DNA of 64,000 nt from Martelella endophytica (GTDB lineage Bacteria > Pseudomonadota > Alphaproteobacteria > Rhizobiales > Rhizobiaceae), in assembly GCF_000960975.1 (NCBI RefSeq), contig NZ_CP010803.1:2694405-2758404 (forward strand), given 5' to 3'. The notes beneath the pieces are model-generated. The model was not told the origin of the DNA and searched no databases. It saw only the letters and a list, made by a program, of their open reading frames with translations. The position numbers and the translations under genes were made by a program. Positions 21,846-41,085 of the stretch are shown in pieces (position 1 is the stretch's first letter; each line of letters begins with the position of its first letter).

Positions 21846-23354
21846 CTAGGCGTCGATATGCCTGAGGAAGGCACGGAAACGCTCGGGGGCCTCTGCCGAG
21901 AACGCTCGCGCCACCGGAAGGTCCATCAGCTTGCGACCGGCTTCCATGAACACGACACGGTCGGCGATCCGACGGGCAAAGCCGACTTCGTGGGTGACGA
22001 CAACCATGGTCACGCCTTCGTGGGCGATTGTGGTCATGACATTCAGCACCTCGTTCACGGTCTCGGGATCGAGCGCCGAGGTGGGCTCGTCGAAGAGCAG
22101 CGCCACCGGATCCATCGAGAGCGCGCGGGCGATCGCCACACGCTGACGCTGGCCGCCTGAAAGCTCCACCGGAAAGGCGCCAACCTGCTTTGAAAGGCCC
22201 ACGCGTGTGAGAAGCGCCTCGGCCTTGGCGAAGGCTTCCGCACGCGGCATCTTCTTCAGCTTGATCAGGCCGAGCGCCACGTTTTCCCGGGCGGTGTAGG
22301 TCTTGAACAGTCCGAAATGCTGGAACACCATGCCGATGCGCTGGCGGGTCCGGTTGATCGCCGCGTCGCCGCGTCGCACCCGACGGCCGTTGGCGAAGCG
22401 CCACGGAAGGCTTTCACCGTCGATGCGGATATCGCCATCATCGGCGGGCTCGATCCAGTTCAGGGTCCTGAGCAGCGTGCTCTTGCCTGAGCCGGAGGGG
22501 CCGAGGATGACCACCACTTCTCCGCGACGCACGATCAGGTCGGTCGGATGCAGCGCGGTGTGTCCGCCGAACTGCTTGCTGATATTCCGCGCTTCGATCG
22601 TGACCGGAGCATCCGATGTAGGCAGCTCAATCGCCGGCCTGATGTCGTCGGGAAGGGCCTGGACGGCGACATTTGCGGCGGGCGCGGTATCGCGGCCGTT
22701 GAGAGCGATCTTCTTTTCAAGCCGGCGCTGGATCAGTGTCCAGATGGTGATCAGGGCCAGGTACCAGACAGAGGCAGCACAATAGGCCTCGAGTGCATGG
22801 GTGGTTGACTGCGCAAGCTGCTGGGAAACACGCAGGAGTTCGGCGAAGGAGATGGTGGCCAGCAACGAAGTGGCCTTGATCATGTAGCTGAAATTGTTGC
22901 CGAGTGGCGGCAGGATGGTGCGCATGGCCTGCGGGAAGATCACCTTGCGGAAGGTGATCCATGGGCGCAGCCCCAAGGAAGCGGCGGCTTCGCGCTGTTC
23001 GTCCGGCACGGCCATCAGGCCGGCGCGCACGATATCGCCCATCCGCGCTGCCTCGTTGAGGCCGAGGCCCAGAAGTCCCGTCGCGACGAGGCTGAGACGC
23101 AGGCCCATCTGGGGGAGGGCGGAATAGAAGAACAGGATCTGCGCGAGCAGCGGCGTTCCCTTGAACAGCCAGAGGTAGAACTGGGCCGACCAGGACAATG
23201 CCCGGGATTTCGACGTCAGCATAACGCCCAGACCGGTCCCGAGCACGGTGCCAATGGTCTGCGCGACGACCGCGACCCAGATCGTCACCCAGGCCGCATG
23301 AGCGACCAGCGGCGAGGTGACGAAGTCGACGAATATGGAGAAGCTGAATCCCAT
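21846..23354 (-). CDS. Polar amino-acid ABC transporter, permease-ATPase fusion (HisM::HisP type)
   Basis: 502 residues joining two normally separate subunits. Residues ~1-215 are a HisM/GlnP-type permease (TM segments, EAA-like loop [22 protein letters not shown]). A linker of about 35 residues follows, then an ATPase with Walker [10 protein letters not shown], signature [14 protein letters not shown] and Walker [12 protein letters not shown]. It is the last gene of a four-gene minus-strand operon, one base after the dehydrogenase gene. It would form a heterodimeric channel with the permease at 24501 and serve the binding protein at 25282. There is no frameshift or internal stop, so the fusion is real in this sequence. 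Confidence 0.93.
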
Positions 23355-23355
23355 C

Positions 23356-24453
23356 TCAGTCTTTCGGTGAGAACAGCGGCACGTACCCCGGCTTCAGGGT
23401 GCGGTTGCGGTCGATGACATGGCAGCGTGGCGCGCGCGGTCCGACAATCGGCAGGGCCAGGCCGTTGCGAAGACCGGGGGTGGCCTCGATTGCCGGTATG
23501 ATGGTGCTGGCGAGAACGTTGGCCGCGCCGAAGAGCGATTCAAGCGCCGGCTCGATCGTCATGCGGACGGGCATGGCGCCATCGATCTCGATGGTGTCGG
23601 CTTCCTTGAGACCGAAGCGCTCCGGCTGGTAATACATCGAAAGGCAGGTCCGCAGAACCAGCGCCTCGCCGCGATAGGCTTCGGCATACTGGCGGATGCC
23701 GACAACGCGGCCGGGGGGAAGGATGCCGAGTGTCGGGTCGCCGCTGTCAACGTCAAAGTCGGCCGTTTCCAGGTCCCAGCGTTCCTTGACCAGGTCGATC
23801 TCCATATCGAGATAGTCGGCGATCAGCGCCAGCGATTCAGGTGCTCCCATGTGGCCGACGATGTCGCCGCGTTCGACCCCGGCATTGAACTGCTCCGGCG
23901 TGAGGCCGTAGCCGACATGCTCGATATCCCCCGGGCCGGTGCCTGTGACATCGATGGTGCGGTTGATGCGCACTGCGGTGACATTGCTGGTGGCACGGGC
24001 GAGAAGCAGCGGCAGGCTGTCGTAGGAGAAGCCGGGATTGATCCCCATACCGGTGATGGAGACGTTCTGACTGCGCGCGAGCTTATCCAGGCGCTCGGCC
24101 ATGTCGCCGAAGCGCAGCCAAGGGTAAAACATGGACTCGGCGGCAGAGATCACGTTCAGGCCCGCCTGGAGGGCTTCGGAAAGCTGGCTTTCGATCCTGC
24201 CGGGCTTGGATTCCGTCATGTGAATCAGGGCGGCCGGCTTTTCCAGCAATCCGGCAAGACAGGAGGCAAGATCCGGGGTGATTGTGACGTCGGCAAAGCG
24301 GGTCGTGCCGCAGATAGCGCCGAGCGTCTTGCCGGATTTCTCCGGGGCATTGTCGATGGCGCCGACGACGTTGAGCGCGCGGTAGTCGTTTTCCAGAACC
24401 CGGAGGAGCCGGCTGCCGAGCGCGCCGCAACCCTGAAGAATGATGTCAGTCAT
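23356..24453 (-). CDS. DapB/amine-dehydrogenase-like NAD(P)-dependent oxidoreductase
   Basis: 365 residues, N-terminal Rossmann fold starting [17 protein letters not shown] (Gly-x-Gly-x-x-Gly). It resembles the dihydrodipicolinate-reductase N domain and the 2,4-diaminopentanoate/amine-dehydrogenase group ([47 protein letters not shown]). The substrate is unknown; reduction or oxidation of an imine/amino-acid derivative is plausible. It is encoded inside an amino-acid ABC operon, one base before the fusion transporter and 47 bases after a permease, so its substrate is probably the imported compound or its first product. Confidence 0.82.
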
Positions 24454-24500
24454 GCACGATGCCTTTCGGGAAAGAAGGGGCCTTTTGGAAGAAGATGGGG

Positions 24501-25217
24501 TCAGCCGAGCGGCTCGATGGCGTCGGGAATTGCCTGTCCGGCGCGCGAGCGCGGCACGGAGCCGCGGTCGGCGATGCGTTCCAGCCAGGCCTGGACGAAA
24601 AGCCAGAGCGAGTACATCAGCAGGTAATAGACTGCAGCCACCGAATAGAGCTCGATGACGCGATAGGTCTCGTTGATGGCCATGCGTGTGACCCGCAATA
24701 GTTCGGCAAACGAGATCACCGAGAGCAGCGACGTGGTGCGCATCATCGAGGCGAATTCATTGCCGAAGGGGGGCAGGATGACGCGGAAGGCCTGCGGCAT
24801 GGCGACGTAGCGGATGACTTCGAGCCGCGAGAAACCCATGGCGCGGGCGGCGAGCGACTGTTCATGCGGTACGGATTCCAGCCCCGCGCGGATGATCTCC
24901 GCCATGTAGGCGCCGGCATAGAAGCCGAGGCCGATGAGGCCAGCCTCGATGACATTGAGACGGATGCCGAGCTGGGGCAGGCCGAAATAGAGCAGAAGAA
25001 GCTGGACCAGCGGCGGCGTGCCGCGCCAGAGCCAGATATAGGCATGCGAAATCCAGCGCAGCGCCGCAAAGCGCGACATGGCAAAGAGTGCGAGCACCAG
25101 GCCGATGACGACGGCGATCGCCTGAGCCACCACCGCGACCAGAAGCGTCACGCCGGCCGCTACCAGAAACCGCGGCTGGAACAGATACTCGAAAAAGACG
25201 TCGACAGAAAAATCCAT
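24501..25217 (-). CDS. Polar amino-acid ABC transporter permease (HisQ/GlnP type)
   Basis: 238 residues, inner-membrane permease with the family N-terminal helix (LVAAGVTLLVAVVAQAIAVVIGLVLALFAM), GTPPLVQLLLLYFGLPQLG and the EAA loop (SLAARAMGFSRLEVIRYVAMPQAFR). It is the second gene of the operon that starts at 26133, following the binding protein across a GC-rich stem-loop. It pairs with the permease half of the fusion protein at 21846. The length is normal for the family. Confidence 0.94.
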   Translation of the reverse strand: MDFSVDVFFEYLFQPRFLVAAGVTLLVAVVAQAIAVVIGLVLALFAMSRFAALRWISHAYIWLWRGTPPLVQLLLLYFGLPQLGIRLNVIEAGLIGLGFYAGAYMAEIIRAGLESVPHEQSLAARAMGFSRLEVIRYVAMPQAFRVILPPFGNEFASMMRTTSLLSVISFAELLRVTRMAINETYRVIELYSVAAVYYLLMYSLWLFVQAWLERIADRGSVPRSRAGQAIPDAIEPLG

Positions 25218-25241
25218 CCGACTTGCCGATCAAGGGAAAGA

Positions 25242-25271
25242 GCCGGCGCAGCAGGGGGAAACCGCGCCGGC
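25242..25271 (-). promoter_or_regulatory. Stem-loop between binding-protein and permease genes
   Basis: GCCGGCGC (25242-25249) and GCGCCGGC (25264-25271) form a perfect 8-bp stem just after the binding-protein stop on the minus strand. Such hairpins commonly protect the binding-protein message and lower read-through to the permeases; here that role is inferred. Confidence 0.55.
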
Positions 25272-25281
25272 AGGTGCGGGC

Positions 25282-26133
25282 TTATTCGCCCGGGTTGAGA
25301 ACGAATTCCGGCACGGCGGAAACGCCCCATTTTTCAACGATGGTCTGGTAGGTGCCGTCGTCCTTCATCGCCTTCAGCGCATCGAGGATGCGCTCGGCAA
25401 GCACGGTATTGTCCTTCAGCGTGGCGATGGCGAGTTGGTTTGCGGCAAAGCCCGCAAAGGCGATCTCGAAGGGAGCGCCCGACTGGCTGATATAGAACGC
25501 CGCCTGCGGGTCATTGAGGTAGGCCGCTTCCGCTTGACCTGAAACCAGAGCCTGGATCGCTTCGGAGTTTGAATCGAAGGCCCGGACTTCAATCCCGTCC
25601 ATGCCGGCCGCCTTCAGGCGCTCGCTCTGTTCTTCCAGATGCTTGTTGGTCGTGCCGCCGGCCGCAACCGATACGGTCTTGCCCGCAAGCCCGTCGAAGC
25701 AGGCGTCATAGCTCTCGGGCTTGCCGATTTCGCCATCGCAAGAAATTGCGTCCGGATTCCCCTCCGGCACCATCAGGCCCTCGCCCCACTGGACGTAGGA
25801 GATCATGTTCATGATCTTCAGCCGGTCGGGATTGATGAAGATGGCGGTGCACAGCGCGTCGAAACGCTCGGCCTGAAGGCCCGGAACAAGGCCGGAAAAG
25901 GCAAGGTTCGTCCACTCGATATCGTCGCCCATGCGCTTGGCGATCTCGCCGCACATGTCGACGTTGAGGCCGTCCATGGTGCCGTCCGTCTTGATGAACT
26001 GGTTCGGCGCCGCCGCAAAGTCGGCGGCGAAGTGGACGGTACCATCCTCGAGCGTACCCTCGGCGAAGGCGGGAGCGGTGAAAGCGAATGTCGCGGCCAG
26101 CGCCAGTGCCAGACCCTTATGTGCTGATATCAT
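25282..26133 (-). CDS. Family-3 amino-acid ABC substrate-binding protein
   Basis: 283 residues with a clear signal peptide (MISAHKGLALALAATFAFTAPAFA, cut before EGTLED). The mature protein shows the SBP_bac_3 marks DGLNVDMCGEIAKRMG, FSGLVPGLQAERFDALCTAIFI and GKTVSVAAGGTTN. It captures a polar amino acid or derivative in the periplasm for the importer encoded at 21846/24501. It is the first gene of its operon. The promoter region contains TTGACA (26215-26210 on this strand) and a palindrome at 26184-26196 shared with two other promoters in the cluster. Confidence 0.95.
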   Translation of the reverse strand: MISAHKGLALALAATFAFTAPAFAEGTLEDGTVHFAADFAAAPNQFIKTDGTMDGLNVDMCGEIAKRMGDDIEWTNLAFSGLVPGLQAERFDALCTAIFINPDRLKIMNMISYVQWGEGLMVPEGNPDAISCDGEIGKPESYDACFDGLAGKTVSVAAGGTTNKHLEEQSERLKAAGMDGIEVRAFDSNSEAIQALVSGQAEAAYLNDPQAAFYISQSGAPFEIAFAGFAANQLAIATLKDNTVLAERILDALKAMKDDGTYQTIVEKWGVSAVPEFVLNPGE

Positions 26134-26183
26134 GAACGTTGTTCCTCTGCTGGTGCACCTTCGTGCTTTACATATTATGCAAA

Positions 26184-26196
26184 ATATTATTGATAT
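26184..26196 (-). promoter_or_regulatory. Shared palindrome, site 1 (promoter of 25282 operon)
   Basis: Read on the minus strand: ATATCA-A-TAATAT, one mismatch from a perfect dyad. It lies 13 bases after TTGACA of the putative promoter and overlaps its AT-rich -10. A GATATATCAATAATATTTT context matches sites 2 and 3. Likely operator of the local GntR protein. Confidence 0.6.
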
Positions 26197-26375
26197 ATCA
26201 CTGCGATGTTGTCAAATATTCAATTTAGCACATCGCCCTGTCGTTGTGGGAAACGCGATAAGTTATTGAAATAATAATAAGAAAAGTGGCTTGGATGCGG
26301 GTGTTGGGACCAAAAGGGCTCAATTTGGGGTGACTGGCCAAAAGCATTTGTTGACTACCAAAGTGCGCGATAATA

Positions 26376-26388
26376 TATCAGTGATATT
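26376..26388 (+). promoter_or_regulatory. Shared palindrome, site 2 (promoter of 26432 operon)
   Basis: ATATCA-G-TGATAT, a perfect 13-base dyad. TTGACT at 26352-26357 and TATATC at 26375-26380 (17-base spacer) form a plausible promoter whose -10 the dyad covers, so binding here would repress. Together with site 1 it occupies the 280-base divergent region 26134-26413. Confidence 0.65.
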
Positions 26389-26431
26389 TTATAAGATATG
26401 CTAACCGCATCACATGAAGGCTTCGCAGTCC

Positions 26432-27088
26432 ATGAAAATAGCCGTTCTCAATCCTAACAGCTCGAAGGCTGTCACCCAGTCGATGGAGCGGTGCCTGGAG
26501 CCTCTCATTGGTCGTACGAAATATCAGATTATCTGCTCGGAGTTGCCGGCGGCGCCGATCGGTATCGAGGATGACAATGACGTGGCCACGGTCTCGCCGA
26601 TGGTCGAGGCTTTCGTGAAAGCTTCCGATGCGGATGCCTTCGTCATCAGCTGCTTCTCCGACCCGGGTGTCGCTGCCGCTCGGAGCCTGACGGACAAGCC
26701 GCTCTTCGGAATTGCCGAATCTGCCTATTGCACATCGCTGCTCTATGGTCGCCGGTTCGGTGTCATCTCGCTCGGTGCTTCGTCCATTGCCCGCCATCGC
26801 GTGCAGATCGAGCGACACGGCCTTCTGGGGCGACTCGCCGGAGACCGGTCGATCGACATGACGGTGGCCGAAGCCAACGATGTCGACAATGCGCGGGATG
26901 TTGTGCAGCGGGTCGGCGCGGAGCTCAGGGCCGATGGCGCGGATGTGCTGATCCTCGGCTGCGCCGGTATGGGCGAGCAGCGACCCGCGCTTCAGAAATT
27001 GCTGGGTACGATCGTTATCGATCCGGTTCAGGCCGCAGTCTCCGCTGCCATCAACGCGCTGGACCTCGGCTACAATCAAGGAAAGTGA
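26432..27088 (+). CDS. Asp/Glu/hydantoin racemase-family protein
   Basis: 218 residues from the ATG at 26432, where family members usually begin (MKIAVLNPNSSKAVTQSM); an ATG at 26414 would add six residues but has no ribosome site. Two cysteines in racemase positions are seen, VISCFSDPG and LGCAGMGEQ, as in hydantoin racemase and aspartate racemase. Enzymes of this group invert a chiral centre without cofactor. It is the first gene of a plus-strand operon with a cyclic amidohydrolase (1-base gap), which points to racemisation of a 5-substituted hydantoin or a similar cyclic ureide. It is transcribed divergently from the amino-acid importer. Confidence 0.88.
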   Translation: MKIAVLNPNSSKAVTQSMERCLEPLIGRTKYQIICSELPAAPIGIEDDNDVATVSPMVEAFVKASDADAFVISCFSDPGVAAARSLTDKPLFGIAESAYCTSLLYGRRFGVISLGASSIARHRVQIERHGLLGRLAGDRSIDMTVAEANDVDNARDVVQRVGAELRADGADVLILGCAGMGEQRPALQKLLGTIVIDPVQAAVSAAINALDLGYNQGK

Positions 27089-27089
27089 A

Positions 27090-28451
27090 ATGCTCGAACG
27101 TGTCGTCAAAGGAACAATCATAACCGAAACCGCCCGCATCGAGGGTGGCTGGGTCGGTATCGACAAGGGGCGGATCGTCGCGATTGGCGACGGTGCTCCG
27201 CCTGAGGCGCGTGAGGTTGATGATTACGGTTCATCGCTCGTTCTGCCGGGCGTCGTCGACGGTCAGACCCATGCGACGAGTTGCAAGGGCATGGAAGGGA
27301 TCGACGACACCACGTCCTCCGCCATCGCCGGCGGCGTCACCACGCTGGTCGATATGCCCTACGACAATCCGGAGCCGCTCGATCGTCCCTCGCGTTTCGA
27401 TGTCAAGGCGAAGGCGATCGCCGAGCACGCGCATGCCGATATGGCGCTTTATGCGACGGCGACGCGCGAAACCGGCATTTCCGAAATCAAGGCGTTGATC
27501 GAGCTTGGCGCCGTCGCCTTCAAGATCTCGTCCTTCGAGAGCAATCCTGTTCGCTTCCCGCGCATTGCCGAGGACCTGACGCTTGATATCTTCGAGACGC
27601 TCGCCGACGGCGATCTTCCGCTTGGTATCCATAACGAGGATCAGGAGATCGTTCACGCCCGCATGGCCCGTGCCCGCGAGGCCGGTGTCGAGGGTATCGA
27701 GGCGCACTCGACCTCGCGGCCGCTCGCTGCCGAGCTTGCAGCGACCGCGCAGTTCTTCGCGCTCGGTCAGGCCGCCGGCGCACACGCGCATCCCGTCCAT
27801 CTGACCGCCAAGGAAGGCTTCGATCTGGTCGGTGCATTCCGCAATCTCGGCATGCGCGCCACCGGCGAGCTCTGTGTTCACTATCTCTGGTTTGATGCCG
27901 CTGCCGATGGTGAGCGTCTCGGTGCGCGCATGAAGGTCAACCCGCCGATCCGCCCCGGCGTCATCGAGGGGCTGTGGCAGGCGATCGAGGAGGGCAACGT
28001 CGCCTTCATTTCCTCTGACCATTCGAGCTGGCCGATCGACTTCAAGTTCACCGATTCGATCTTCGATGCCGGCGCCGGTGTTCCGGGTCTGGAAACGCTT
28101 CTGCCGTCCTTCTTCACGCTGTGCGCCCGTCGTGGTCTCGACGCCGCGCGCATGGCCGCCGACATGCTCAGCGCCCGCCCGGCAAAGTTCTTCGGTATCG
28201 ACAATCGCAAGGGTGCCATCGCCATCGGTCGCGACGCCGACATTGCAATCCTCGAAGAGGGCGCATTCGTCTGGGATGAAACCAAGGCGCATGACGGGCT
28301 GAAGTGGAGCCCCTTCCACGGCGAGGAATTCGCGGTGCGGGTTGCTGCCACCTATCTGCGCGGTGCGCCGGGCTGGAATGGAACAGATGTCGTCAACGCC
28401 GCCGGAAGCGGTGAACTGGTCAAGCGCGCCACCAAGGGCTGGTACGCCTGA
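27090..28451 (+). CDS. Dihydroorotase/hydantoinase/allantoinase-like cyclic amidohydrolase
   Basis: 453 residues, amidohydrolase TIM barrel with small N- and C-terminal beta domains. Seen: LPGVVDGQTHATS, the carboxylated-lysine strand VAFKISSFES (Lys145), PLGIHNEDQEIV, PVHLTAKEG, FISSDHSSWP (catalytic Asp) and GAIAIGRDADIAIL. The first metal-binding pair is Gln59-x-His61 rather than His-x-His. It would open a cyclic amide such as a hydantoin, dihydropyrimidine or related ring. The hydantoin-racemase-like gene precedes it by one base and the DapA-like gene follows after 19, so the three likely act in sequence. Confidence 0.87.
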   Translation: MLERVVKGTIITETARIEGGWVGIDKGRIVAIGDGAPPEAREVDDYGSSLVLPGVVDGQTHATSCKGMEGIDDTTSSAIAGGVTTLVDMPYDNPEPLDRPSRFDVKAKAIAEHAHADMALYATATRETGISEIKALIELGAVAFKISSFESNPVRFPRIAEDLTLDIFETLADGDLPLGIHNEDQEIVHARMARAREAGVEGIEAHSTSRPLAAELAATAQFFALGQAAGAHAHPVHLTAKEGFDLVGAFRNLGMRATGELCVHYLWFDAAADGERLGARMKVNPPIRPGVIEGLWQAIEEGNVAFISSDHSSWPIDFKFTDSIFDAGAGVPGLETLLPSFFTLCARRGLDAARMAADMLSARPAKFFGIDNRKGAIAIGRDADIAILEEGAFVWDETKAHDGLKWSPFHGEEFAVRVAATYLRGAPGWNGTDVVNAAGSGELVKRATKGWYA

Positions 28452-28470
28452 AAACCGAGGGACGGAAACC

Positions 28471-29397
28471 ATGAAACTGATCAATGAAGAAACGAGCGGC
28501 GTCTTTGTCATCGCCGTCACCCCGTTCGACGAAACGGGCGCCATCGACTGGGCAAGCCTTGACCGCGTCACCGACTTCTATTTCGAAGCCGGCGCCGACG
28601 GGCTGACGCTTCTCGGCATGATGGGCGAAGCGCCGAAGATGACGCAGGCCGAAGCGATCGAGATCACCAAACGGGTCATTGCCCGTGCCGGCGACAAGCC
28701 GATCGTCATCGGCGTCTCGGCGCCGGGCCTGGCCTCGATCCGCGAGCTCGGCCAGACGGTCATGGAGCTCGGGGCTGCCGGCGTCATGGTCGCGCCGCCC
28801 GGTTCGCTGAAGACGGACCCGCAGATCCATGCCTATTACGGGCAGGTCGTCGAAGCGCTCGGCGACGATATCCCGGTCGTGCTTCAGGACTTTCCGTTGT
28901 CGACCGGCGTCAACATCAGCATGGATGTGCTCGGCCGGATCATCGAGGACTATCCCTCGATCAAGATGCTGAAGCACGAGGATTGGCCGGGCCTCGCCAA
29001 GATCAGCGCCATCCGCGATGCCGAAGCCAAAGGCCGTCGCCGCCTGTCGATCCTGTGCGGCAATGGCGGTCTGTTTCTTTCCGAAGAGGTTGAGCGCGGC
29101 GCCGATGGCGCGATGACCGGCTTCGCCTATCCGGAAATGATGGTTGCCGTGACCCGCGAAATGAAGGCTGGAAATGCCGATCGGGCCCGTGATCTCATGG
29201 ACGTCTATCTGCCGCTTATCCGCTACGAAACGCAGCCCGGCCTTGGCCTTGCCGTCCGCAAATATGTGCTGGCAAAGCGTGGGGCGATCGCATCGCCCGC
29301 CTTGCGCAAGCCCGGCAAATCACTCGATGCCCGTTCGGCCGCCGAGGTCGACATCCTGATGGACCGCATCGAAAAGCGCCTGAAGGAGATTGGCTGA
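28471..29397 (+). CDS. DapA/N-acetylneuraminate-lyase family protein
   Basis: 308 residues, (beta/alpha)8 class I aldolase family. Start 28471 is used because upstream codons from 28342 lie in the previous gene. The Schiff-base lysine is Lys168 (KMLKHED). MMGEAPKMT stands where GTTGE is usual. The catalytic Tyr of DapA (YNVP) is replaced: the sequence is LQDFP with Gln139 at that position. It is therefore unlikely to be a true dihydrodipicolinate synthase; a retro-aldol or dehydratase/decarboxylase on a 2-oxo acid is more likely. Its stop overlaps the next start by one base. Confidence 0.85.
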   Translation: MKLINEETSGVFVIAVTPFDETGAIDWASLDRVTDFYFEAGADGLTLLGMMGEAPKMTQAEAIEITKRVIARAGDKPIVIGVSAPGLASIRELGQTVMELGAAGVMVAPPGSLKTDPQIHAYYGQVVEALGDDIPVVLQDFPLSTGVNISMDVLGRIIEDYPSIKMLKHEDWPGLAKISAIRDAEAKGRRRLSILCGNGGLFLSEEVERGADGAMTGFAYPEMMVAVTREMKAGNADRARDLMDVYLPLIRYETQPGLGLAVRKYVLAKRGAIASPALRKPGKSLDARSAAEVDILMDRIEKRLKEIG

Positions 29398-30173: not shown

Positions 30174-30190
30174 GCCTGTTTCGAACAAAT

Positions 30191-30235: not shown

Positions 30236-30248
30236 ATATCAGTAATAT
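30236..30248 (+). promoter_or_regulatory. Shared palindrome, site 3 (promoter of 30271 operon)
   Basis: ATATCA-G-TAATAT, one mismatch from the perfect dyad of site 2, within TTGATATATCAGTAATATATTA. TTGACT lies at 30215-30220. The first gene of the second importer operon begins 22 bases further on. Confidence 0.6.
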
Positions 30249-30270
30249 ATTACAACAAATGGAGAACAGC

Positions 30271-32737: not shown

Positions 32738-32740
32738 TCC

Positions 32741-33412: not shown

Positions 33413-34080
33413 TGGACTGGAGTGTCATTACCGACAATGCGGGTGTCATCTTCGATGCGACGCTGATGACGATCTGGATTTCGGCGTCGACGATCGTGTT
33501 GTCGCTTGTCCTCGCCTTTCCGCTCGCCGTCATGCGCGACGGACCTGTCGCCTTCCTGCGCGGCGTTGCCGCCTTTTTCAGCTGGTTCATGCGCGCCACG
33601 CCTGCGCTCACGCTGCTGTTCTTCACCTATTTCGGACTGCCGCAGCTTGGCATCTATCTCGATGCAGTGCCGGCGGCGATCGTCGGCCTGACCTTGTCTG
33701 CCGCGGGCTACAACATGGAGTATATCCGCTCGGGCCTGCGCTCCGTTCCTGCCAACCAATACGAGGCAGCGCGTGCGCTCGGCATGCCATCTGCCATGAT
33801 CTTGCGACGCATCATCGTGCCGCAGGCGATCCGCACCATCATGCCGCCGCTGACGTCGAACCTGACGCTGGTGATGAAGGGAAGCTCGCTTGCCGGCATG
33901 GTTGCAGTGACGGAACTGACCGGCGCCGGCATGGCGCTGATTTCGGAGACCTACAAGCCGATCGAAATTCTGCTCGTCATCGGCGTGATCTACCTGATCC
34001 TGAACGGTATTCTCATCCGGTTGCAGAAATGGGTCGAATATCGCCTGTCATTCGAGAGGCTTGCCGCAGATGGCCGTTGA
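33412..34080 (+). CDS. Polar amino-acid ABC transporter permease B
   Basis: 222 residues, partner permease: TLMTIWISASTIVLSLVLAFPLAV, MRATPALTLLFFTYFGLPQLG and the EAA loop (EAARALGMPSAMILRRIIVPQAIR). It overlaps permease A by one base (TGATG). End of the second importer operon; the GntR gene follows after about 180 bases. Confidence 0.94.
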   Translation: MDWSVITDNAGVIFDATLMTIWISASTIVLSLVLAFPLAVMRDGPVAFLRGVAAFFSWFMRATPALTLLFFTYFGLPQLGIYLDAVPAAIVGLTLSAAGYNMEYIRSGLRSVPANQYEAARALGMPSAMILRRIIVPQAIRTIMPPLTSNLTLVMKGSSLAGMVAVTELTGAGMALISETYKPIEILLVIGVIYLILNGILIRLQKWVEYRLSFERLAADGR

Positions 34081-34258: not shown

Positions 34259-34990
34259 ATGAGAGGCTCAACAGCAGCGGGAAGCGCAACCGCGCAGAAG
34301 CCGGCCGCGCGAAAACGAAACGCCAAGCAGCTTTCCCTGACCGAACAGGTTTACTACAGGCTGCGTGGCGAAATCTTGAGCTGCAAGCTCGAGCCGGGGC
34401 TTGAAATCTCCGAGGCTGAGCTCGCGGAGCGTTTCGAGGTTTCGAAAACACCGGTGCGCGAGGCACTCGCCACGCTGCGCCAGGAAGGGCTGGTGCGCAC
34501 CTTCCCGCGGCGCGGCTATCAGATCACGCCGATCACCTTCGGTGACATGAACGAGCTTTTCGACCTCCGGACGATGCTCGAGGCCGGTGCGGCTGAGCTT
34601 GCCTGCGAACGGATCACCGAAGAAGAGCTGTCGCATCTTCGCGCGCTTGCGGAGGTTGTCTATGATCAGGCCGAAAGTCCGACCATCGACAAGTTCATCG
34701 CCGCGAATACAGATTTCCACCTGGCGATTGCCCGTGCCTCCGGCAATCAGCGGCTTTACGACGTGCTTGCCCGCCAGCTCTACGAACTCGAGCGCTTCTT
34801 CTATCTCGGCGCGCAGAAGCGTGACGTGAACAGCGAAACCAGCAATGACCACATGAAGATCGTCGAGGCCCTTGGCCGGCGCGACCGCGACGAGGTGCGG
34901 GCTCTGATGGTCCGCCACAACGACCTGACCCGGCAGGGGCTGTTCAAGGTGCTTGCAAATTCCCGCAGCTATGGCGCGATCGCGCTTTAG
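34259..34990 (+). CDS. GntR-family (FadR/FCD) transcriptional regulator
   Basis: 243 residues from the ATG at 34259, with GGGGG about 12 bases upstream; a GTG at 34211 is an alternative. A basic N-terminal tail is followed by the winged HTH (LTEQVYYRLRGEILSCKLEPGLEISEAELAERFEVSKTPVREALATLRQEGLV, about 27-95) and an FCD ligand domain (FDLRTMLEAGAAELA, DFHLAIARASGN, NDHMKIVEALGRRD) with the metal-binding Asp/His pattern. It sits between two halves of the catabolic cluster and is the best candidate to bind the three ATATCA-N-TRATAT palindromes at 26184, 26376 and 30236. Confidence 0.93.
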   Translation: MRGSTAAGSATAQKPAARKRNAKQLSLTEQVYYRLRGEILSCKLEPGLEISEAELAERFEVSKTPVREALATLRQEGLVRTFPRRGYQITPITFGDMNELFDLRTMLEAGAAELACERITEEELSHLRALAEVVYDQAESPTIDKFIAANTDFHLAIARASGNQRLYDVLARQLYELERFFYLGAQKRDVNSETSNDHMKIVEALGRRDRDEVRALMVRHNDLTRQGLFKVLANSRSYGAIAL

Positions 34991-35294
34991 GCGGCTTTGC
35001 TGTCGATAGCGGCGGCCAGGAACCCGGGCTCGACGATGAGCCTGCGGGCAGATTTCGTTTGGCCTCAAGCCGGCGCAAGCCGCGCCGCACGACGACAACG
35101 CCATCGCTGTTTCAGGTGTTGCGACCGTACTCGACAGTCCCGTTTGGCCGCTCCGGTCTGACTTTTTTCAAGTATTCCGTGATGTTTTACGGGCCGGTGC
35201 GAAAATCGCATCGGCTGGGCCTCGGGAACGTTGACTTACAGAAATATCACAGGCAACATCAGAAATATAATACACGCTGTCTCAAGAGCTCCCG
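34991..35294. other. Intergenic region, 304 bases, probable promoter of the 35295 operon
   Basis: No convincing gene. TTGACT at 35231-35236 and TATAAT at 35266-35271 are seen, though 29 bases apart, too far for one sigma-70 promoter. A half-site ATATCAC at 35244-35250 resembles half of the shared operator. A 129-codon open frame from 35059 has no ribosome site or family resemblance. Confidence 0.4.
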
Positions 35295-36623
35295 ATGTCC
35301 GTCACCTCAAATCTCGAACCGAACCCGGCCGCGCCAGCAAGCGGGTCGCTGTGGGAGGCTCTTGCGCCGCCAACGGTTCGTTACCGCCCGGTTGCGGGAG
35401 AGGTTCGGGCCGATGTGGTCTTTGTTGGCGCTGGCTTTCTGGGCCTGACCGCCGCACTTTCGGCCGCGCGCTGCGGGCTGTCGGTTGCCGTGATCGAGGC
35501 GGCGCAGCCGGGGTATGGCGCGTCGGGTCGTAACACAGGCTTTGTTGTTCCGAGCCTGAAATCAGGCCTCGGGCCGGGAGATGTCATTTCGCGTCTGGGC
35601 GAAGATTATGCCTGGCGCCTGTTGCGTCTCGTCGCGCAATCGGGGCGCACAGTTTCCGGCCTCATCACCGAAAACGCCATCGATTGCGCTGCAGACTGGC
35701 GGGGCTGGCTTCAGCCGGGCCACAGCCATGCGGCGGAGCAGGGCTTGAAGGATCGCCTGTCGCTGCTGCACGAATCCGGTGTCGAAGCCGCCTTTCTGTC
35801 GCGCGATGAGATGACGGCACGCACCGGTCTGCCCACGCTTCACGGTGGTCTCGATATCCTGTCCGGCGGTCAGATCAATCCGCTTGCCTATGCTCGGGGA
35901 CTGGCTGCAGCGGTCGAGACCGCTGGCGGCCGCGTTTTTGGCGACAGCCCAGTCGAAAGCGTGCAGCGTTGCGATGCCGACTGGTCCGTCAATTCGAGTG
36001 CTGGGCGGATCGTGGCTGGCCAGGTCATTCTCACCACCAATGCGATGGTCGGCAATCTGTGCCCGCCGCTTCGTGCCTCCATCATTCCGGTACGGGTCTT
36101 CCAGATTGCCACGCAGCCGCTTTCGGATCGTTACCGTGAGACGATATTGCCGTCCGGCGCTCCTGTGACGGATACCCGACGCCACACGTTCGCGCTGCGC
36201 TGGAGCGAGGATGGACGTCTGGTAACCGGCGGTCTCGTTTCCCCGGCGCTCGACCGTTTGTCACTGGCGCGAAAGACCTTTGTCGAACGACTGAGGCGGT
36301 TCATCCCGAACCTTCCCGACATCCGGGTCGAATATGCCTGGAGCGGGCAGATTGCCGCCACCATGGACGCGCTTCCGCGAATGATTTCGATTGCGCCGGG
36401 TCTGACCGGCGTCATTGGCTGTAACGGTCGCGGCGTTGCGCTTACGAGCGCGCTTGGGACCGAAGTCGGGAAGCTTGTTTCGGGACAGGTGAACGAAGCC
36501 GATTTCGTGCTTCCGGTGACGCCGCCTCGAAAGATACCGTTTTCGCGCCTCGCGGGGCTTGGGCCGCATCTCTGGCTGCCCTGGAGCAACACACTCGACC
36601 GCATTGACGCCGCCTGGCGCTGA
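35295..36623 (+). CDS. FAD-dependent oxidoreductase (DadA/PuuB-OrdL-like), copy 1
   Basis: 442 residues. An N-terminal extension of about 38 residues (SLWEALAPPTVRYRPVAGEVRADV) precedes the FAD loop VVFVGAGFLGLTAALSAARCG and YGASGRNTGFVVPS, as in gamma-glutamylputrescine oxidases and related DAO proteins. C-terminal GCNGRGVALTSALGTEVGKL binds the flavin. It likely oxidises an amine or N-substituted amino acid. The ribosome site is weak. It begins the second plus-strand enzyme set of the cluster. An independent FAD enzyme of the same superfamily lies at 37066. Confidence 0.9.
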   Translation: MSVTSNLEPNPAAPASGSLWEALAPPTVRYRPVAGEVRADVVFVGAGFLGLTAALSAARCGLSVAVIEAAQPGYGASGRNTGFVVPSLKSGLGPGDVISRLGEDYAWRLLRLVAQSGRTVSGLITENAIDCAADWRGWLQPGHSHAAEQGLKDRLSLLHESGVEAAFLSRDEMTARTGLPTLHGGLDILSGGQINPLAYARGLAAAVETAGGRVFGDSPVESVQRCDADWSVNSSAGRIVAGQVILTTNAMVGNLCPPLRASIIPVRVFQIATQPLSDRYRETILPSGAPVTDTRRHTFALRWSEDGRLVTGGLVSPALDRLSLARKTFVERLRRFIPNLPDIRVEYAWSGQIAATMDALPRMISIAPGLTGVIGCNGRGVALTSALGTEVGKLVSGQVNEADFVLPVTPPRKIPFSRLAGLGPHLWLPWSNTLDRIDAAWR

Positions 36624-36667
36624 TAGCTGCCGCCACCAACACGATTGTCCGCTTCAAGGAGACCGCC

Positions 36668-37036
36668 ATGAGCGAAGAAAAGATTCAATGGTCGCGACAG
36701 GAAGACGTCGCGCTAACCTGGGTTCACAAGGATCAGGAATTCAGCCATCGGCTGATCACCAAGAAGCTGCACGGTTCGCCGATGTCGTTTCACATCACGA
36801 CCTACATGCCGCATTTCGACACGATGGTGGAGGGCGACGGCGTCCACGAGGTGATCCTCTACTGCCTGCATGGCTGGTCCGAGCAGATCGTTGAGGCGAC
36901 CGGCGAACGCCATCATTTCAAGCCGGGCGATGCCATGTATCTGCCGAAAAATTATCGTTATCGCCACATCATCGGCGAAGCCGGCCTCGTCATCGCGGTC
37001 TGCGCGACGCCGTCCAAAGAAGCGGGCGACATGTGA
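36668..37036 (+). CDS. Small cupin-domain protein
   Basis: 122 residues, a single cupin barrel: MPHFDTMVEGDGVHEVILYCLHGWSEQI, then ERHHFKPGDAMYLPKNYRYRHIIGEAG, giving the two cupin motifs. His residues of motif 1 are partly replaced, so metal binding is uncertain. AAGGAG lies ahead of the start. Its place between two FAD oxidoreductases suggests it handles an intermediate or stabilises an enzyme; no function can be assigned. Confidence 0.82.
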   Translation: MSEEKIQWSRQEDVALTWVHKDQEFSHRLITKKLHGSPMSFHITTYMPHFDTMVEGDGVHEVILYCLHGWSEQIVEATGERHHFKPGDAMYLPKNYRYRHIIGEAGLVIAVCATPSKEAGDM

Positions 37037-37065
37037 CGACCGATAGCAACAGGACGGCCTGAACC

Positions 37066-38268
37066 ATGTCCGCTGAATTTCATTCCGATTTTGCGACGCT
37101 TGCCCGCAAACCGGATGCCATCATCGTAGGCGGTGGCATCGCCGGGCTGACGAGCGCCTGGTTTCTGGCACACGCCGGGCTCCGTCCGCTCGTGGTCGAG
37201 CGGCTGCCCGCTGTCTCCATGCTGGCTTCCCGCCGCTCGGGCGAGGGCGTGCGTGCCCAGTGGGAAAAGCCGGAAAACATCGAAATCGCCCGCCGCTCGA
37301 TCGAATTCTATCGCGACTTCAGCGAGCACACCGGTCATGATTCCGGCTATCGGCCGGTCGGCTATCTTTATGCCAGCCGCACCGAAGCAGGTGCGGAAGG
37401 GCTGCGCCAGCGGGTTTCGCGCCAGCAGGCTGCCGGCCTCGATGATGTCGTCTATCTGAAGGGCGATGATCTGCGGAAGAAAGTGCCGACCATCGCACCT
37501 GATGCGGTCGGTGCGGGATTCCGCCAGGCCGATGGTGTGATCGACATTGCCAGAGTGGTCAGGGGGCTTCTGGCTTCTGCCGATTTCGATGTCGTCACCG
37601 GTGCTGATGTTCTGGATATCAGGCCGACTGCTGGCAGGGTTGTTGTGAAGACCAGCCTTGGCACACTCGATGCACCGAAGGTGGTGCTTTCCTCTGCCGC
37701 ACGCGCACCGGCGATGCTGGAAGCGCTCGGCATTTCGCTGCCTCTGAGACTCAGCCGATCGACCATCCAGTATGTTGAGGTCGAGGGCATTCCCGCCGGT
37801 CACACCGCCGTCATGGATGCCGATCTCGGCTCGTTCTGGCGGGTCGATACCGGCGGTGCGCGGATGACGGCATCGTTTCGCACGACACTGCTGCTCGACC
37901 AGTTTACCGATGACCCGGCTGTCGACCCGGATTACCTCAAGGTCGCGATCGAAACCGTGTCGCCGATGATCCCGATGTGGAAGGACCTCGCGCCGAAAAT
38001 CACCGGCGGTCATGTGCGCACCGGCTCCTTGCTGGTCTCCGGCGATGGCGGACCGCTGATCGGCCCGGTCGATGGTTTCGAGGGCCTTTATCTCAACACC
38101 GCCTATGGCGGCCACGGCCTGATGGCCGCCCCTGAAGGAGCCCGGACGCTTGTCGGTATGATGACCGGTGGTCCGTCCGGCGATTTCCTTCCCTCGCGTT
38201 TTTCCGACGATCCGGCCGGGCTGGTACCCGAGCCGATGACCGTCAATCTTCTCTCTGATCAAGGATAA
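37066..38268 (+). CDS. FAD-dependent oxidoreductase (DAO/sarcosine-oxidase-beta-like), copy 2
   Basis: 400 residues. FAD loop AIIVGGGIAGLTSAWFLAHAGL at about 15-36, RRSGEGVRAQWEKPENIEIARRSI where sarcosine oxidase beta has its flavin-contact segment, and the C-terminal LYLNTAYGGHGLMAAPEGARTLVGMMTGG. A DAO-family oxidase or dehydrogenase of an amino acid or N-alkyl amino acid. It is only distantly like copy 1 and like mgdA. Five bases to the second AroM gene, so in the same transcript. Confidence 0.9.
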   Translation: MSAEFHSDFATLARKPDAIIVGGGIAGLTSAWFLAHAGLRPLVVERLPAVSMLASRRSGEGVRAQWEKPENIEIARRSIEFYRDFSEHTGHDSGYRPVGYLYASRTEAGAEGLRQRVSRQQAAGLDDVVYLKGDDLRKKVPTIAPDAVGAGFRQADGVIDIARVVRGLLASADFDVVTGADVLDIRPTAGRVVVKTSLGTLDAPKVVLSSAARAPAMLEALGISLPLRLSRSTIQYVEVEGIPAGHTAVMDADLGSFWRVDTGGARMTASFRTTLLLDQFTDDPAVDPDYLKVAIETVSPMIPMWKDLAPKITGGHVRTGSLLVSGDGGPLIGPVDGFEGLYLNTAYGGHGLMAAPEGARTLVGMMTGGPSGDFLPSRFSDDPAGLVPEPMTVNLLSDQG

Positions 38269-38272
38269 GAAA

Positions 38273-39076
38273 ATGGCAAACAAGACCACCCATATCGGTG
38301 TTGTCACCACCGGCCACGGCCCGCGCGACGAATATCTGCATTATCACAAGATGTTCCTCGAAGCGCTTGGCGCCGACGTGAAGATCACCGTCCGTCATAT
38401 CTATGAAGACCTCACCCTTGAGGAGCTTCTGCCGCATCAGGTCGACAAGACGACGCCGAACCTCGGTGCGCATGTCCATGTTCCGGGTGCCGTCGGCAAC
38501 CATATGGGCGATGGCTGGGAGCATCGTTTCTTCGAACTCGGCTTTGCCACCAAGTTGGTGCAGAAGACGATCGACAGGCTGGAAGAAGAAGACGGCGTCG
38601 ACATGGTGCTGCTCGCCTGCGCCGCCGAATTTCCGAAAGGCCAGATTTCCGCCGGAACGCTGCTGATCCATCCCCGCGAGATCATGTTCTCGATTGCCGA
38701 AAACATTGCCCATGGCACCCGCCGCAAGCCGAAGATTGGCGTGATCGTCGATGCCGAGCATGCCGACCACGATGTCGCCGACTGGAAGTCGCGCGCCTTC
38801 TACAAGAATATCGAACTCGAAGTCTCTCCGATCACCGGAAGCTGGCATGATGCCGCCAGGAAGCTTGGCGAGGCCAATGTCGAATTCGCCTTCTTCTTCG
38901 GCTATGGCGTCGGCCTTGCTCCTTATGATGCTGCTGATGAAATCCCGGCACTTGAGCGCGCCATCGGCGCGCCGCTGATCCTGCCGCATCGCGCAACCGT
39001 GCTGCATCTGCGCAACCTCGTCGGCCCTGCAATGAACGACCTGGCATACATGCCGGAAGGATGGAACAAGGCATGA
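38273..39076 (+). CDS. AroM-family protein, copy 2
   Basis: 267 residues, related in layout to the protein at 31177: THIGVVTTGHGPRDEY at the N terminus (compare GIITTGQSPRNEY), LTLEELLPHQV, VDMVLLACAAEFPKGQ, FFFGYGVGLAPYDAA (compare WGYGDGLAPHD) and a closing GAPLILPHRATVLHLRNLV. The two are diverged paralogues rather than a recent duplication. Function unknown. It overlaps the creatininase-family gene by four bases. Confidence 0.75.
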   Translation: MANKTTHIGVVTTGHGPRDEYLHYHKMFLEALGADVKITVRHIYEDLTLEELLPHQVDKTTPNLGAHVHVPGAVGNHMGDGWEHRFFELGFATKLVQKTIDRLEEEDGVDMVLLACAAEFPKGQISAGTLLIHPREIMFSIAENIAHGTRRKPKIGVIVDAEHADHDVADWKSRAFYKNIELEVSPITGSWHDAARKLGEANVEFAFFFGYGVGLAPYDAADEIPALERAIGAPLILPHRATVLHLRNLVGPAMNDLAYMPEGWNKA

Positions 39077-39963
39077 GCAACGACAAGACAGAACGCCATT
39101 TCGCCCCCCGGACGCTGATCTGGGCGGAGATGACGCGTGCCGATTTGACGGCTGCACGGGACGCCAATGCTCTGGTGCTGATCCCGACCGGCTCGATCGA
39201 GCAGCATGGTGACCACCTGCCGGTGGAAACCGACATGCTGCTTTCCACCGCCGTTGCTGAACTGACGGCGACCCGGATTGCCGGCAATACCCCGGTTGTG
39301 GTGGCGCCTTCGGTCCCCTTCGGCTTCACCCCGCATCACCTGAGCTGGCCGGGCACGATCAGCCTGAGGCTTGAAACCTATATCGCCATGGTCGGCGATA
39401 TCGCCCGCTCTGTGATCGACAGCGGCTTTACCCGTGCCGTTTTCGTCAATGGCCATGGCGGCAACTCGGCGCCGTTGCGCTCGCTCACAGGTCAGCTGAT
39501 CACCGATGGCTATGCTGTCGGCATGGTCGACTATTTCATGCCGAGCGAGAAGGACTATGTCCCGATGCTGAAGGGCGGTCTGGCGCGCGCCGGTCATGCT
39601 TGCGAGCAGGAAACCGCGCTGATGCTGGCCGTCAGCGGTGGCGAAAGTGCTGCGCTGATCAGCGAGCGCAAGGCAGGCCTCGAACCGCGTCTGATCCAGC
39701 CATGGGTCGCTCCCGGCTATCCGAACGACCCGGTCACGGAAGCCGGCGCCGGATGGGCTGCAATCTTCCATGCGGATGACTGCGGCTACTACGGCGATCC
39801 GGCAGCGGCCACGCCTGAAAACGGCGATGCCATTCTCGAAGTGACGATCGATGCGTTGGCGCGCTTCCTGGAAGGTTTTGCCCGCGCGCCTTTGCGTCTC
39901 GGCGTTGCCCGCGATGCATCGCGTCCCGGCATTGCCCAGCCGACGGCCAAGGAAGGAAAGTAA
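39073..39963 (+). CDS. Creatininase-family amidohydrolase
   Basis: 296 residues from the ATG at 39073, overlapping the previous stop (ATGA). The metal ligands match creatininase spacing: Glu43 and His45 (SIEQHGDHLP), Asp54 (VETD) and His128 (NGHGGN), with Glu178 in CEQETALML. The family opens cyclic amides (creatinine) or cleaves formamides and mycofactocin-type peptides. Here it is the second ring-opening hydrolase of the cluster besides the one at 27090. Whether the substrate is creatinine itself cannot be told; no creatinase or urea-releasing enzyme is nearby. Confidence 0.9.
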   Translation: MSNDKTERHFAPRTLIWAEMTRADLTAARDANALVLIPTGSIEQHGDHLPVETDMLLSTAVAELTATRIAGNTPVVVAPSVPFGFTPHHLSWPGTISLRLETYIAMVGDIARSVIDSGFTRAVFVNGHGGNSAPLRSLTGQLITDGYAVGMVDYFMPSEKDYVPMLKGGLARAGHACEQETALMLAVSGGESAALISERKAGLEPRLIQPWVAPGYPNDPVTEAGAGWAAIFHADDCGYYGDPAAATPENGDAILEVTIDALARFLEGFARAPLRLGVARDASRPGIAQPTAKEGK

Positions 39964-39966
39964 CGC

Positions 39967-41085
39967 ATGTCCATCGATCTTCTCGTCACCGGCGCCGGCG
40001 CTGTCGGCGGCTATGCCGTCGAATATCTGGCACGTCGCGCCGAGGTAAACACGATTGCCGTTGTCGACCGCGATGCCGACCGCGCCAAGGGCATTGCCTG
40101 GCGCGCGACGCTTGGCGCGCTGCAGGAAGGCAAGCACGTCCGCATCGAAGGCATCGGCCTCGATCTCTCCGATCCGAAGGCGACCGCCGACACGATCGGT
40201 CGCCTGGCGCCGCGCGCGATCTTCCACACGGCCACGCTTCTGACGGTGCCGGAAATGGCGCGCGGTCTGACGCCGGAAAACTTCCAGGCTGTGCGTGAAG
40301 GCGGCATGGGCGGCTTTCTCGCCGCTCACCTGACACTCGGCCTTTCGGTTCAGGCCGGCATCAAGGCGGCTGGCCTTGCGACCAGTTTCATCACCGCGCC
40401 TTTCCCGGATTTCACCAATCAGGTCCTGTCGAAAACCGGACCTGCGCCGCTCACCGGCATCGGGAACGTCGACAATGTTGCTTGCGAGCTGCAGGCGATC
40501 GTTGCCGAGAAATTCGAGGTTTCGGCTCTGTCCGTCACGCCGCTGATCGTTGCTCACCATTCCGTTGCTGAATGGTTCCAGCGCTCCGGGGATGCCGGCA
40601 AGGCACCGTGGCACGCAACCGTCATCGTCGAAGGCCGTGATGTCACCGCCGAGATCGATGCCGACAAGCTGATGGGTGAAAGTGCGGCGCGCATTCGTGG
40701 CGTGCCGCAGGAAAGCCGCACGGCAGCTTCCGGCGTCAAGACAGTGCTCGCTGCGCTGCGCAACGATGGCAGCTTCCAGCACGGCGCTGGCCCTGCCGGT
40801 CGTCCGGGTGGCTGGCCGATCCGGGTCTGGGCCGACCATGTCGAAATCCTGCCGGTCCCAGGCTTCGATGAGGCGAAGGGCTATGAGTTCATGCTCTCCG
40901 GCCAGAAGGCTGGCGGTATCGAGGTGATCGAGGGAGACGGCACGGTGATCGCGACCGATCAGTGCGCCGACATGGTCCGCTCGCTCTTCGGCGTCGACAT
41001 CAAGCGTCTTGCGCCCGGCGATATCGCTGAGGCGGGCCTTGCTCTGCGTGGTGCGCTGAGCAAGCGGATCGCCGCTGGCGGCTGA
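39967..41085 (+). CDS. Saccharopine-dehydrogenase-like NAD(P)-binding protein
   Basis: 372 residues. N-terminal Rossmann loop LLVTGAGAVGGYAVEYLARR, ending the first strand-helix with VVDRDADRAKGIAWRATLG. The segment APRAIFHTATLLTVPEMARGL and the following domain are of saccharopine-dehydrogenase/homospermidine-synthase style. It may reduce or oxidise an imine formed from an amino acid, comparable with the enzyme at 23356. It is the last gene of the operon, four bases after the creatininase-like gene. An inverted-repeat element starts right after its stop. Confidence 0.8.
   Translation: MSIDLLVTGAGAVGGYAVEYLARRAEVNTIAVVDRDADRAKGIAWRATLGALQEGKHVRIEGIGLDLSDPKATADTIGRLAPRAIFHTATLLTVPEMARGLTPENFQAVREGGMGGFLAAHLTLGLSVQAGIKAAGLATSFITAPFPDFTNQVLSKTGPAPLTGIGNVDNVACELQAIVAEKFEVSALSVTPLIVAHHSVAEWFQRSGDAGKAPWHATVIVEGRDVTAEIDADKLMGESAARIRGVPQESRTAASGVKTVLAALRNDGSFQHGAGPAGRPGGWPIRVWADHVEILPVPGFDEAKGYEFMLSGQKAGGIEVIEGDGTVIATDQCADMVRSLFGVDIKRLAPGDIAEAGLALRGALSKRIAAGG

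Follow-up and report, generated by a model that had tools for sequence, protein, structure and literature searches.

Several described bacterial systems resemble part of the gene cluster considered here, a 20-gene block at positions 21846-41085 of a 64-kb window (G000:C1:2694405-2758404) of the single-contig, 4.81-Mb Martelella endophytica genome. The hydantoin utilisation (hyu) and allantoin pathways likewise set a hydantoin/allantoin-racemase-like protein beside a hydantoinase/allantoinase-like cyclic amidohydrolase; the block, however, has no recognised N-carbamoylase, allantoate or ureidoglycolate enzyme, and adds AroM proteins, a cupin, a creatininase-family enzyme, two DAO flavoenzymes and two family-3 importers. 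With the ergothioneine operon it shares an ErtD-like amidohydrolase bearing a Gln motif, but none of the other ert genes. The ehu-eut operons also combine a binding-protein-dependent importer, a racemase and a GntR regulator, whereas no Eut/Doe hydrolase or deacetylase was recognised in the block among the best 25 matches per protein, and its EctC-like cupin stands in an apparently catabolic cluster. PMC11055893 describes CDO-containing clusters in which AroM genes are enriched together with hydantoin-racemase and DUF917 genes; the block similarly has AroM beside hydantoin-racemase-type and hydantoinase-type genes, but it has no recognised CDO or DUF917 gene and carries family-3 amino-acid importers. 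Closer in sequence are smaller AroM-ErtD-like-DHDPS-SDR-amidase operons on S. meliloti Rm41 pSYMA, Rhizobium pMK-3 and Agrobacterium pAtAF1_95 (L015, L016 and L017), where AroM also lies inside a family-3 importer operon and the ErtD-like, DHDPS-like and SDR proteins are 56-60%, 60-64% and 50-59% identical to those of the block. Their AroM is only 27-28% identical, an amidase replaces the creatininase, and the stretches examined contain no cupin or DAO match.

We lean towards reading the block as a horizontally transferred, co-regulated catabolic regulon by which a small number of related amino acids, cyclised or N-substituted, would be channelled into a single lower pathway, most likely through a hydantoin-like intermediate. 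A sequence-only reading of the window had recognised no described pathway with this gene set, and no description of the cluster was apparent from titles and abstract openings among the matches listed in the open-licence PMC literature, although other journals may hold one. If our reading is true, the block is a mobile and modular gene set that gives bacteria an undescribed way of living on a class of ring-containing amino-acid compounds. Its main value is the genomic context that it gives to AroM and the EctC-like cupins: the role of AroM, and that of an EctC-like cupin outside ectoine synthesis, become testable in one strain.

The 20 genes, identified by Pfam and NCBIfam scans, stand in four apparent transcription units. 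Unit 1, on the minus strand, holds the ABC1 importer genes with a DAPDH gene between the subunits. The plus-strand units comprise the racemase, ErtD-like, DHDPS-like and SDR genes (unit 2), SBP2, AroM1 and the ABC2 genes (unit 3), and DAO1, cupin, DAO2, AroM2, creatininase and SacDH (unit 4), with a GntR/FCD gene between units 3 and 4. Gene content, linkage, modularity, transfer pattern, the palindrome, the motifs and the AroM fold reported below were all computed.

Conservation and modularity of the cluster

Martelella sp. NC18 carries all 20 genes in identical order on a 259-kb plasmid, and none of seven flanking window genes tried was found in the stretches examined from NC18 and NC20. For this reason we keep the borders at 21846-41085, where the sequence-only reading had drawn them.

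Scanning genome contigs with AroM1 gave five further loci, and genome searches added others; the genomes searched with AroM1, AroM2 and the cupin are overlapping samples and no census. Nine AroM1 relatives were compared: NC18; Salipiger, Alloyangia and Poseidonocella (Rhodobacterales); Microvirga, Faunimonas and Labrys (Hyphomicrobiales); and two members of the window's own order (G088 and G675). Co-occurrence was counted from tblastn matches at E 1e-8 covering at least 35% of the query, a criterion owing to which low-identity SDR, GntR and ABC entries in the counts are paralogues. AroM2, SacDH, creatininase, SBP2, racemase, ErtD-like and DHDPS-like genes were near AroM1 in all nine relatives, and DAO1, DAO2, cupin and GntR in eight, the Salipiger contig ending early. 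Beyond Martelella (eight genomes or contigs from two orders) the modules stand in different orders and orientations; thus the cluster is not one stretch inherited unchanged. The operons had been proposed to form one system on the understanding that this would fall if they never co-occurred. They co-occur repeatedly, and a palindrome common to them lends further support. Judged from these arrangements, the block is one functional unit.

The cupin search recovered 10 of 397 genomes of the order at E 1e-25 or better (own genome included) and 2 of 295 in the family of Alloyangia. Together with two plasmid matches, it supplied seven loci of 27-40 kb (G627, G836, G753, G777, G669, Neorhizobium galegae, and Lichenicola cladoniae of the order Rhodospirillales) in which AroM and SacDH had no match at E 0.001. 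All seven nevertheless hold the ErtD-like, DAO1 and cupin genes; DHDPS-like genes occur in six, and racemase and DAPDH genes in five each. This pattern, lower-part genes without AroM or SacDH, suggests a funnel anatomy in which a lower part recurs with different, interchangeable front ends. The lower part would consist of the racemase-like and ErtD-like proteins, the EctC-like cupin, DAO1 and the DHDPS-like enzyme, often with SDR and creatininase. The front ends, each with its own family-3 importer, would be ABC1 with DAPDH, and ABC2 with the two AroM proteins, DAO2 and SacDH. ABC1/DAPDH is present in four of the nine AroM1 relatives, and seven of the nine carry a third front end (a family-3 importer with an OYE reductase), joined in five by TctC-like, GMC and DAO3 genes; neither the window nor the NC18 stretch gave a match to its OYE, GMC or TctC genes. 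Since the lower part is found again in AroM-less loci and its front ends can replace one another, the two importers of the block probably serve related compounds rather than one.

Parts of the set also occur in other company. Some or all of the racemase, amidohydrolase, DHDPS-like and SDR genes accompany dipeptide or TRAP transporters elsewhere, and the DHDPS-SDR pair also adjoins 5-oxoprolinase and aminotransferase genes. A second Labrys cupin (51% identity) adjoins other ABC genes, and near the 55% identical cupin of G880 there is no characteristic enzyme gene of the cluster. On Neorhizobium galegae pNgVX (L062) the lower part looks partly degraded: the annotation splits the hydantoinase-like gene into pieces and has a single gene covering the DAO1 and cupin matches. 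The plasmid of lichen-derived Lichenicola cladoniae (L061) has much of the lower part together with GMC, DAO3 and OYE genes; two TonB-dependent receptor genes among its cluster genes hint at uptake of the substrate across the outer membrane.

Rarity and horizontal transfer

Counting the genome itself, AroM1 was present in 3 of 101 relatives; among 385 class members that genome alone had it. AroM2 was found in 5 of 397 members of the order, again counting its own genome, and in 1 of 295 genomes of the Alloyangia family, namely Alloyangia. Compared with the RecA of the window genome, that of G088 and G675 is 84% and 86% identical, and that of the three Rhodobacterales 76-80%. The cluster proteins reverse this ranking: AroM1 is 64% (G088) and 61% (G675) identical within the order versus 88-89% in the three Rhodobacterales, the ErtD-like protein 57% and 59% versus 75-77%, and the cupin 66% versus 89-92% in two of the three, Alloyangia and Poseidonocella. 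These reversed identities indicate that the cluster moved by horizontal transfer. In G627, of the window's order and with 81% RecA identity, the cupin is 95-96% identical, and in G777 a phage-integrase gene adjoins the cluster.

A palindrome shared by the promoters

The palindrome ATATCANTGATAT has three matches with at most one mismatch in the window, against 0.02 expected, and all lie in cluster promoters. A fourth site, at 35256, was scored with a weight matrix at 14.4, the next background place reaching 11.1. When the matrix was built on other genera alone, the sites at 26375, 30236, 26184, 26195 and 35256 took the five highest ranks in the 64 kb, 35256 scoring 13.6 against 11.5 for the next best; the matrix sites had been picked by resemblance to the consensus, so that only their position counts as independent. 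The palindrome thus scored is, on this evidence, a mark of the promoters of all four units, strong at three and weak at the fourth, and of cluster promoters in several relatives.

The relatives were assessed at 37 other loci (756 kb, some stretches overlapping slightly at their ends); NC18, which has two sites itself, was excluded. The 300 bp upstream of cluster genes, 3.1% of this sequence, held ten of the 15 palindrome matches (binomial P about 2e-12). The other five lay outside this promoter mask; one of them, in L091, is upstream of GntR but is more than 300 bp away or misses the mask for another reason. Among 60 composition-matched permutations the palindrome ranked first, with 10 matches against a mean of 0.5; the second-ranked (5 matches) resembles a shifted reading of the same site.

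Genome-wide, the perfect copy ATATCAGTGATAT is unique, and 11 sites have at most one mismatch, three of them inside a 4.1-kb span of the cluster; a reversed control pattern gave one. Of the eight other sites, each with one mismatch, six are within long open reading frames (ORFs), one is near a radical-SAM (RlmN-type) gene, and one has a phage-integrase gene on one side and an ORF with no Pfam match at 1e-10 on the other. About 20 kb before the window start, in L113 (G000:C1:2670500-2679000), a phage-integrase gene is adjoined by a single operator-like site. The GntR/FCD protein is the candidate owner of the cluster's operator.

The AroM proteins

AroM1 and AroM2 are the sole AroM matches in the genome at E 0.001, and both pass the gathering score of PF07302. 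AroM proteins are described as experimentally uncharacterised in PMC11055893. A search of PDB sequences with AroM1 gave nothing useful, but its predicted structure has the fold of the Asp/Glu/hydantoin racemase superfamily. The Cys pair 112/113 of AroM1 aligns with the first catalytic site of the racemases, and a weak alignment to a profile of the racemase set (probability 22%, E 0.00097) puts a Gly-Tyr-Gly triplet, kept in 29 of 29 proteins, at the second. C116 is the only Cys of AroM2, so this protein does not have Cys at both racemase catalytic positions. AroM1 too apparently lacks the second catalytic cysteine, which makes it more likely to be isomerase- or lyase-like than a two-cysteine racemase.

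Other enzymes and binding proteins

The two catalytic-type cysteines of Racem, C80 and C183, are both kept in all 14 proteins compared. The ErtD-like protein scores 482.8 bits against the NCBIfam model of ErtD, the hydantoin-5-propionate amidohydrolase, under the equivalog cut-off of 600. Its DGQTH motif occurs in 14 of 14 proteins, and the genome's own ErtD, the only ErtD compared, has DAQVH; hydantoinases usually carry His first in the HxH motif, where the ErtD-like protein has Gln. In the DHDPS-like protein, a KHEDWPG motif with a candidate Schiff-base lysine is likewise kept in 14 of 14. The creatininase-family enzyme reaches 87.7 bits against the NCBIfam creatininase equivalog model (cut-off 235); EQH...D and GHGGN stretches are found in its aligned relatives, with variants in G088 and G675.

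The cupin falls below both its Pfam cut-off (22 against 27 bits) and the NCBIfam EctC cut-off (22.5 against 128). Its E61, Y91 and H100 nonetheless align with E57, Y85 and H93 of ectoine synthase 5bxx and are kept in 21, 20 and 22 of 22 proteins, respectively; according to PMC6344544, the iron ligands of ectoine synthase are Glu, Tyr and His. PMC6344544 and PMC5924519 describe the function of orphan EctC proteins as unclear.

SBP1 keeps the carboxylate-clamp Arg and has Asn in the column of the alpha-ammonium Asp, with an Asp directly after it, whereas SBP2 keeps both the Arg and the Asp of the amino-acid clamp. The family and residue evidence supports the earlier proposal of amino-acid-type import with ring-opening enzymes: the ABC importers would take amino-acid-like carboxylates, and two enzymes appear to belong to cyclic-amide-hydrolase families. 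Through SBP1 and SBP2 the natural substrate could be approached directly.

Proposed pathway and alternative explanations

On the regulon reading, ABC2 would import a ligand whose alpha-amino acid group is free, and ABC1 a carboxylate without the alpha-ammonium charge. The front-end enzymes (AroM1, DAO2, AroM2 and SacDH on the ABC2 side, DAPDH on the ABC1 side) would yield a common ring intermediate by rearranging and oxidising C-N bonds, and DAO1 and the EctC-like cupin would act on this intermediate. The creatininase-family enzyme and the racemase/ErtD-like pair would then open cyclic amide bonds, the DHDPS-like Schiff-base enzyme would handle a 2-oxo acid, and the SDR, by a reduction or an oxidation, would lead the product towards central metabolism. 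Control of the four units through ATATCANTGATAT would fall to the GntR/FCD protein. Oxidative deamination by way of imines and subsequent retro-aldol cleavage, as first suggested, is only one of the possible orders of events. The DHDPS-like enzyme may instead be a dehydratase, since L-2-keto-3-deoxyarabonate dehydratases rank directly after its best PDB match, the unassigned structure 3dz1. More tentatively still, and with less than even confidence, AroM proteins and this EctC-like cupin subfamily might be enzymes dedicated to a modular pathway not yet described. In it AroM would be an isomerase, lyase or decarboxylase with one active-site cysteine, working at an early step on an imported cyclic or N-substituted amino acid, and the cupin would contribute ring-opening, ectoine-synthase-type chemistry that feeds an ErtD-type hydantoinase. 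These would be the first functions for AroM and for a relative of the orphan EctC proteins.

Several observations weigh against the regulon as drawn. A hydantoin route would need a decarbamoylase, and none is obvious in the window. The creatininase is found in only three of the seven AroM-less loci, the clusters of Labrys and Microvirga showed no SDR within them, and the DHDPS-like enzyme could be a dehydratase. At two or fewer mismatches the palindrome is absent from the Rhodobacterales loci and several others, among them G627, G836, Neorhizobium galegae and Lichenicola in their cluster promoters; because of this, the regulation appears not to be conserved everywhere, and GntR/FCD is linked to the operator by inference. 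The substrate class, the order of steps and the activity of each enzyme are likewise inferred. The roles given to the SBP1 and SBP2 residues follow HisJ/LAO-type proteins, and in SBP1 an Asp comes directly after the Asn.

Among other explanations, catabolism of ectoine, hydroxyectoine or another cyclic amidine, in which the cupin opens a tetrahydropyrimidine-like ring and the racemase acts as EutA, seems unlikely. It draws on the conserved iron-ligand residues of the EctC-like cupin, on the hydrolysis of synthetic ring analogues by H. elongata ectoine synthase (PMC6344544), and on the importer, racemase and GntR regulator familiar from ehu-eut operons (PMC5924519). However, no Eut/Doe model, hydrolase and deacetylase included, appeared among the best 25 NCBIfam matches for each of the 14 block proteins scanned (all but the permeases, ATPases and GntR); the binding proteins score 68 and 60 bits to EhuB, whose cut-off is 190.9; and the route as given in PMC5924519 has no place for the ErtD-like, creatininase, AroM and DHDPS-like enzymes. 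We consider degradation of mycosporine-like amino acids quite improbable. Here flavoenzymes would strip the amino acids, the creatininase-family enzyme would hydrolyse the cyclohexane-dione core like IolN, and the OYE of the relatives would reduce the enone. The additional OYE-family reductase and GMC oxidoreductase of the relatives fit this, as does the lichen origin of one lower-part carrier, but the IolN match of 62 bits is far under the cut-off of 245, the window has no OYE or GMC match, and the hydantoinase/racemase pair has no natural role. The chemistry is moreover our own proposal, the compounds not having been found among the literature matches listed.

A variant ergothioneine (or thiohydantoin) utilisation operon is largely refuted and keeps very little of our confidence. 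The amidohydrolase scores 483 bits to ErtD and has the Gln motif of the genome's ErtD, but it stays below the equivalog cut-off, and the genome's ErtD (779.9 bits) stands elsewhere, at G000:C1:1129000-1148900 (L041), beside a thiourocanate hydratase (1026 bits) and a thiohydantoin desulfurase (604 bits), all above cut-off; neither of these two partners was found at 21846-41085 by the Pfam and NCBIfam scans. Least credible, and refuted as far as sequence allows, is that the operons are unrelated neighbours with no joint function. The window genes beside the block do look unrelated to it, and two of them, an amidohydrolase and a LysR gene, occur in only 3/13 and 1/13 genomes of the genus, but the modules co-occur in other arrangements, the palindrome is common and NC18 has the same 20-gene block. 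A mycofactocin system was also rejected: the creatininase scores 113 bits to MftE, under the cut-off of 172, and the relatives' GMC and OYE proteins fall below the cut-offs of MftG and the mycofactocin OYE model. Arginine glycation, as a source of hydantoins or imidazolones, would be a purely speculative origin of the substrate.

Gene content and neighbouring features

Each protein family named in the sequence-only reading is encoded in the block, with three labels refined (Table 1). The dihydroorotase-like protein is indeed of the amidohydrolase family and closest to the ErtD model, the DapB-like enzyme is better described as 2,4-diaminopentanoate-dehydrogenase-like, and the cupin is ectoine-synthase-like. 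The DHDPS-like and GntR genes probably start downstream of their longest-ORF starts, because the annotated starts in NC18 lie so.

Table 1. Genes of the block and operator-like sites, in window coordinates
Feature	Position	Strand	Evidence
ABC1 permease-ATPase fusion, importer 1	21846..23354	-	Pfam BPD_transp_1 + ABC_tran
DAPDH, 2,4-diaminopentanoate-dehydrogenase-like oxidoreductase, importer-1 front end	23356..24453	-	DAP_DH_C 92.9 bits; NF040740 201.9 bits, cut-off 400
ABC1 permease	24501..25217	-	Pfam
SBP1, family-3 binding protein	25282..26133	-	Pfam SBP_bac_3
Operator-like palindrome, 1 mismatch; weaker overlapping copy at 26195	26184..26196	.	
Operator-like palindrome ATATCAGTGATAT, perfect; starts 39 bp before racemase ATG	26375..26387	.	
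Racem, hydantoin/allantoin-racemase-like	26414..27088	+	Asp_Glu_race 183.5 bits; PDB hydantoin/allantoin racemases
ErtD-like hydantoinase	27090..28451	+	Amidohydro_1; closest NCBIfam model ErtD
DHDPS-like lyase or dehydratase	about 28471..29397	+	DHDPS 109 bits
SDR oxidoreductase	29397..30173	+	Pfam
Operator-like palindrome, 1 mismatch; starts 23 bp before SBP2 ATG	30236..30248	.	
SBP2, family-3 binding protein	30259..31104	+	Pfam SBP_bac_3
AroM1, Asp/Glu-racemase fold	31177..31956	+	Pfam AroM 45.4 bits, cut-off 23.8
ABC2 ATPase	31943..32737	+	Pfam
ABC2 permease 1	32741..33412	+	Pfam
ABC2 permease 2	33412..34080	+	Pfam
GntR/FCD regulator	about 34259..34990	+	Pfam GntR + FCD
Weaker operator-like site; starts 39 bp before DAO1 ATG	35256..35268	.	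weight matrix
DAO1, FAD oxidoreductase, pipecolate-oxidase-like	35295..36623	+	DAO 184.9 bits; NF050086 240 bits, cut-off 600
EctC-like cupin	36668..37036	+	Ectoine_synth, under Pfam cut-off
DAO2, FAD oxidoreductase, glycine/sarcosine-oxidase-like	37066..38268	+	DAO 156.8 bits
AroM2	38273..39076	+	Pfam AroM 42.6 bits, cut-off 23.8
Creatininase-family amidohydrolase	39061..39963	+	Pfam Creatininase (PF02633) 189.9 bits, cut-off 31.3
SacDH, saccharopine-dehydrogenase-like oxidoreductase	39967..41085	+	Sacchrp_dh_NADP 27.4 bits

Elsewhere in the window, glutamine-synthetase-like, glutamate-synthase-like, DAO and sarcosine-oxidase alpha/gamma-like genes at 7767-19021 resemble what we take to be the N-methylglutamate (methylamine) pathway; those tried did not adjoin the cluster in the NC18 and NC20 stretches. 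The ergothioneine operon at L041 also holds a histidine-ammonia-lyase-like gene and an OsmF-like binding protein. Directly downstream of the cluster a palindromic element of 19 bases, CCTCGGGCTTGACCCGAGG, occurs in two exact, inverted copies, at 41160-41178 and 41282-41300, against 0.01 expected.

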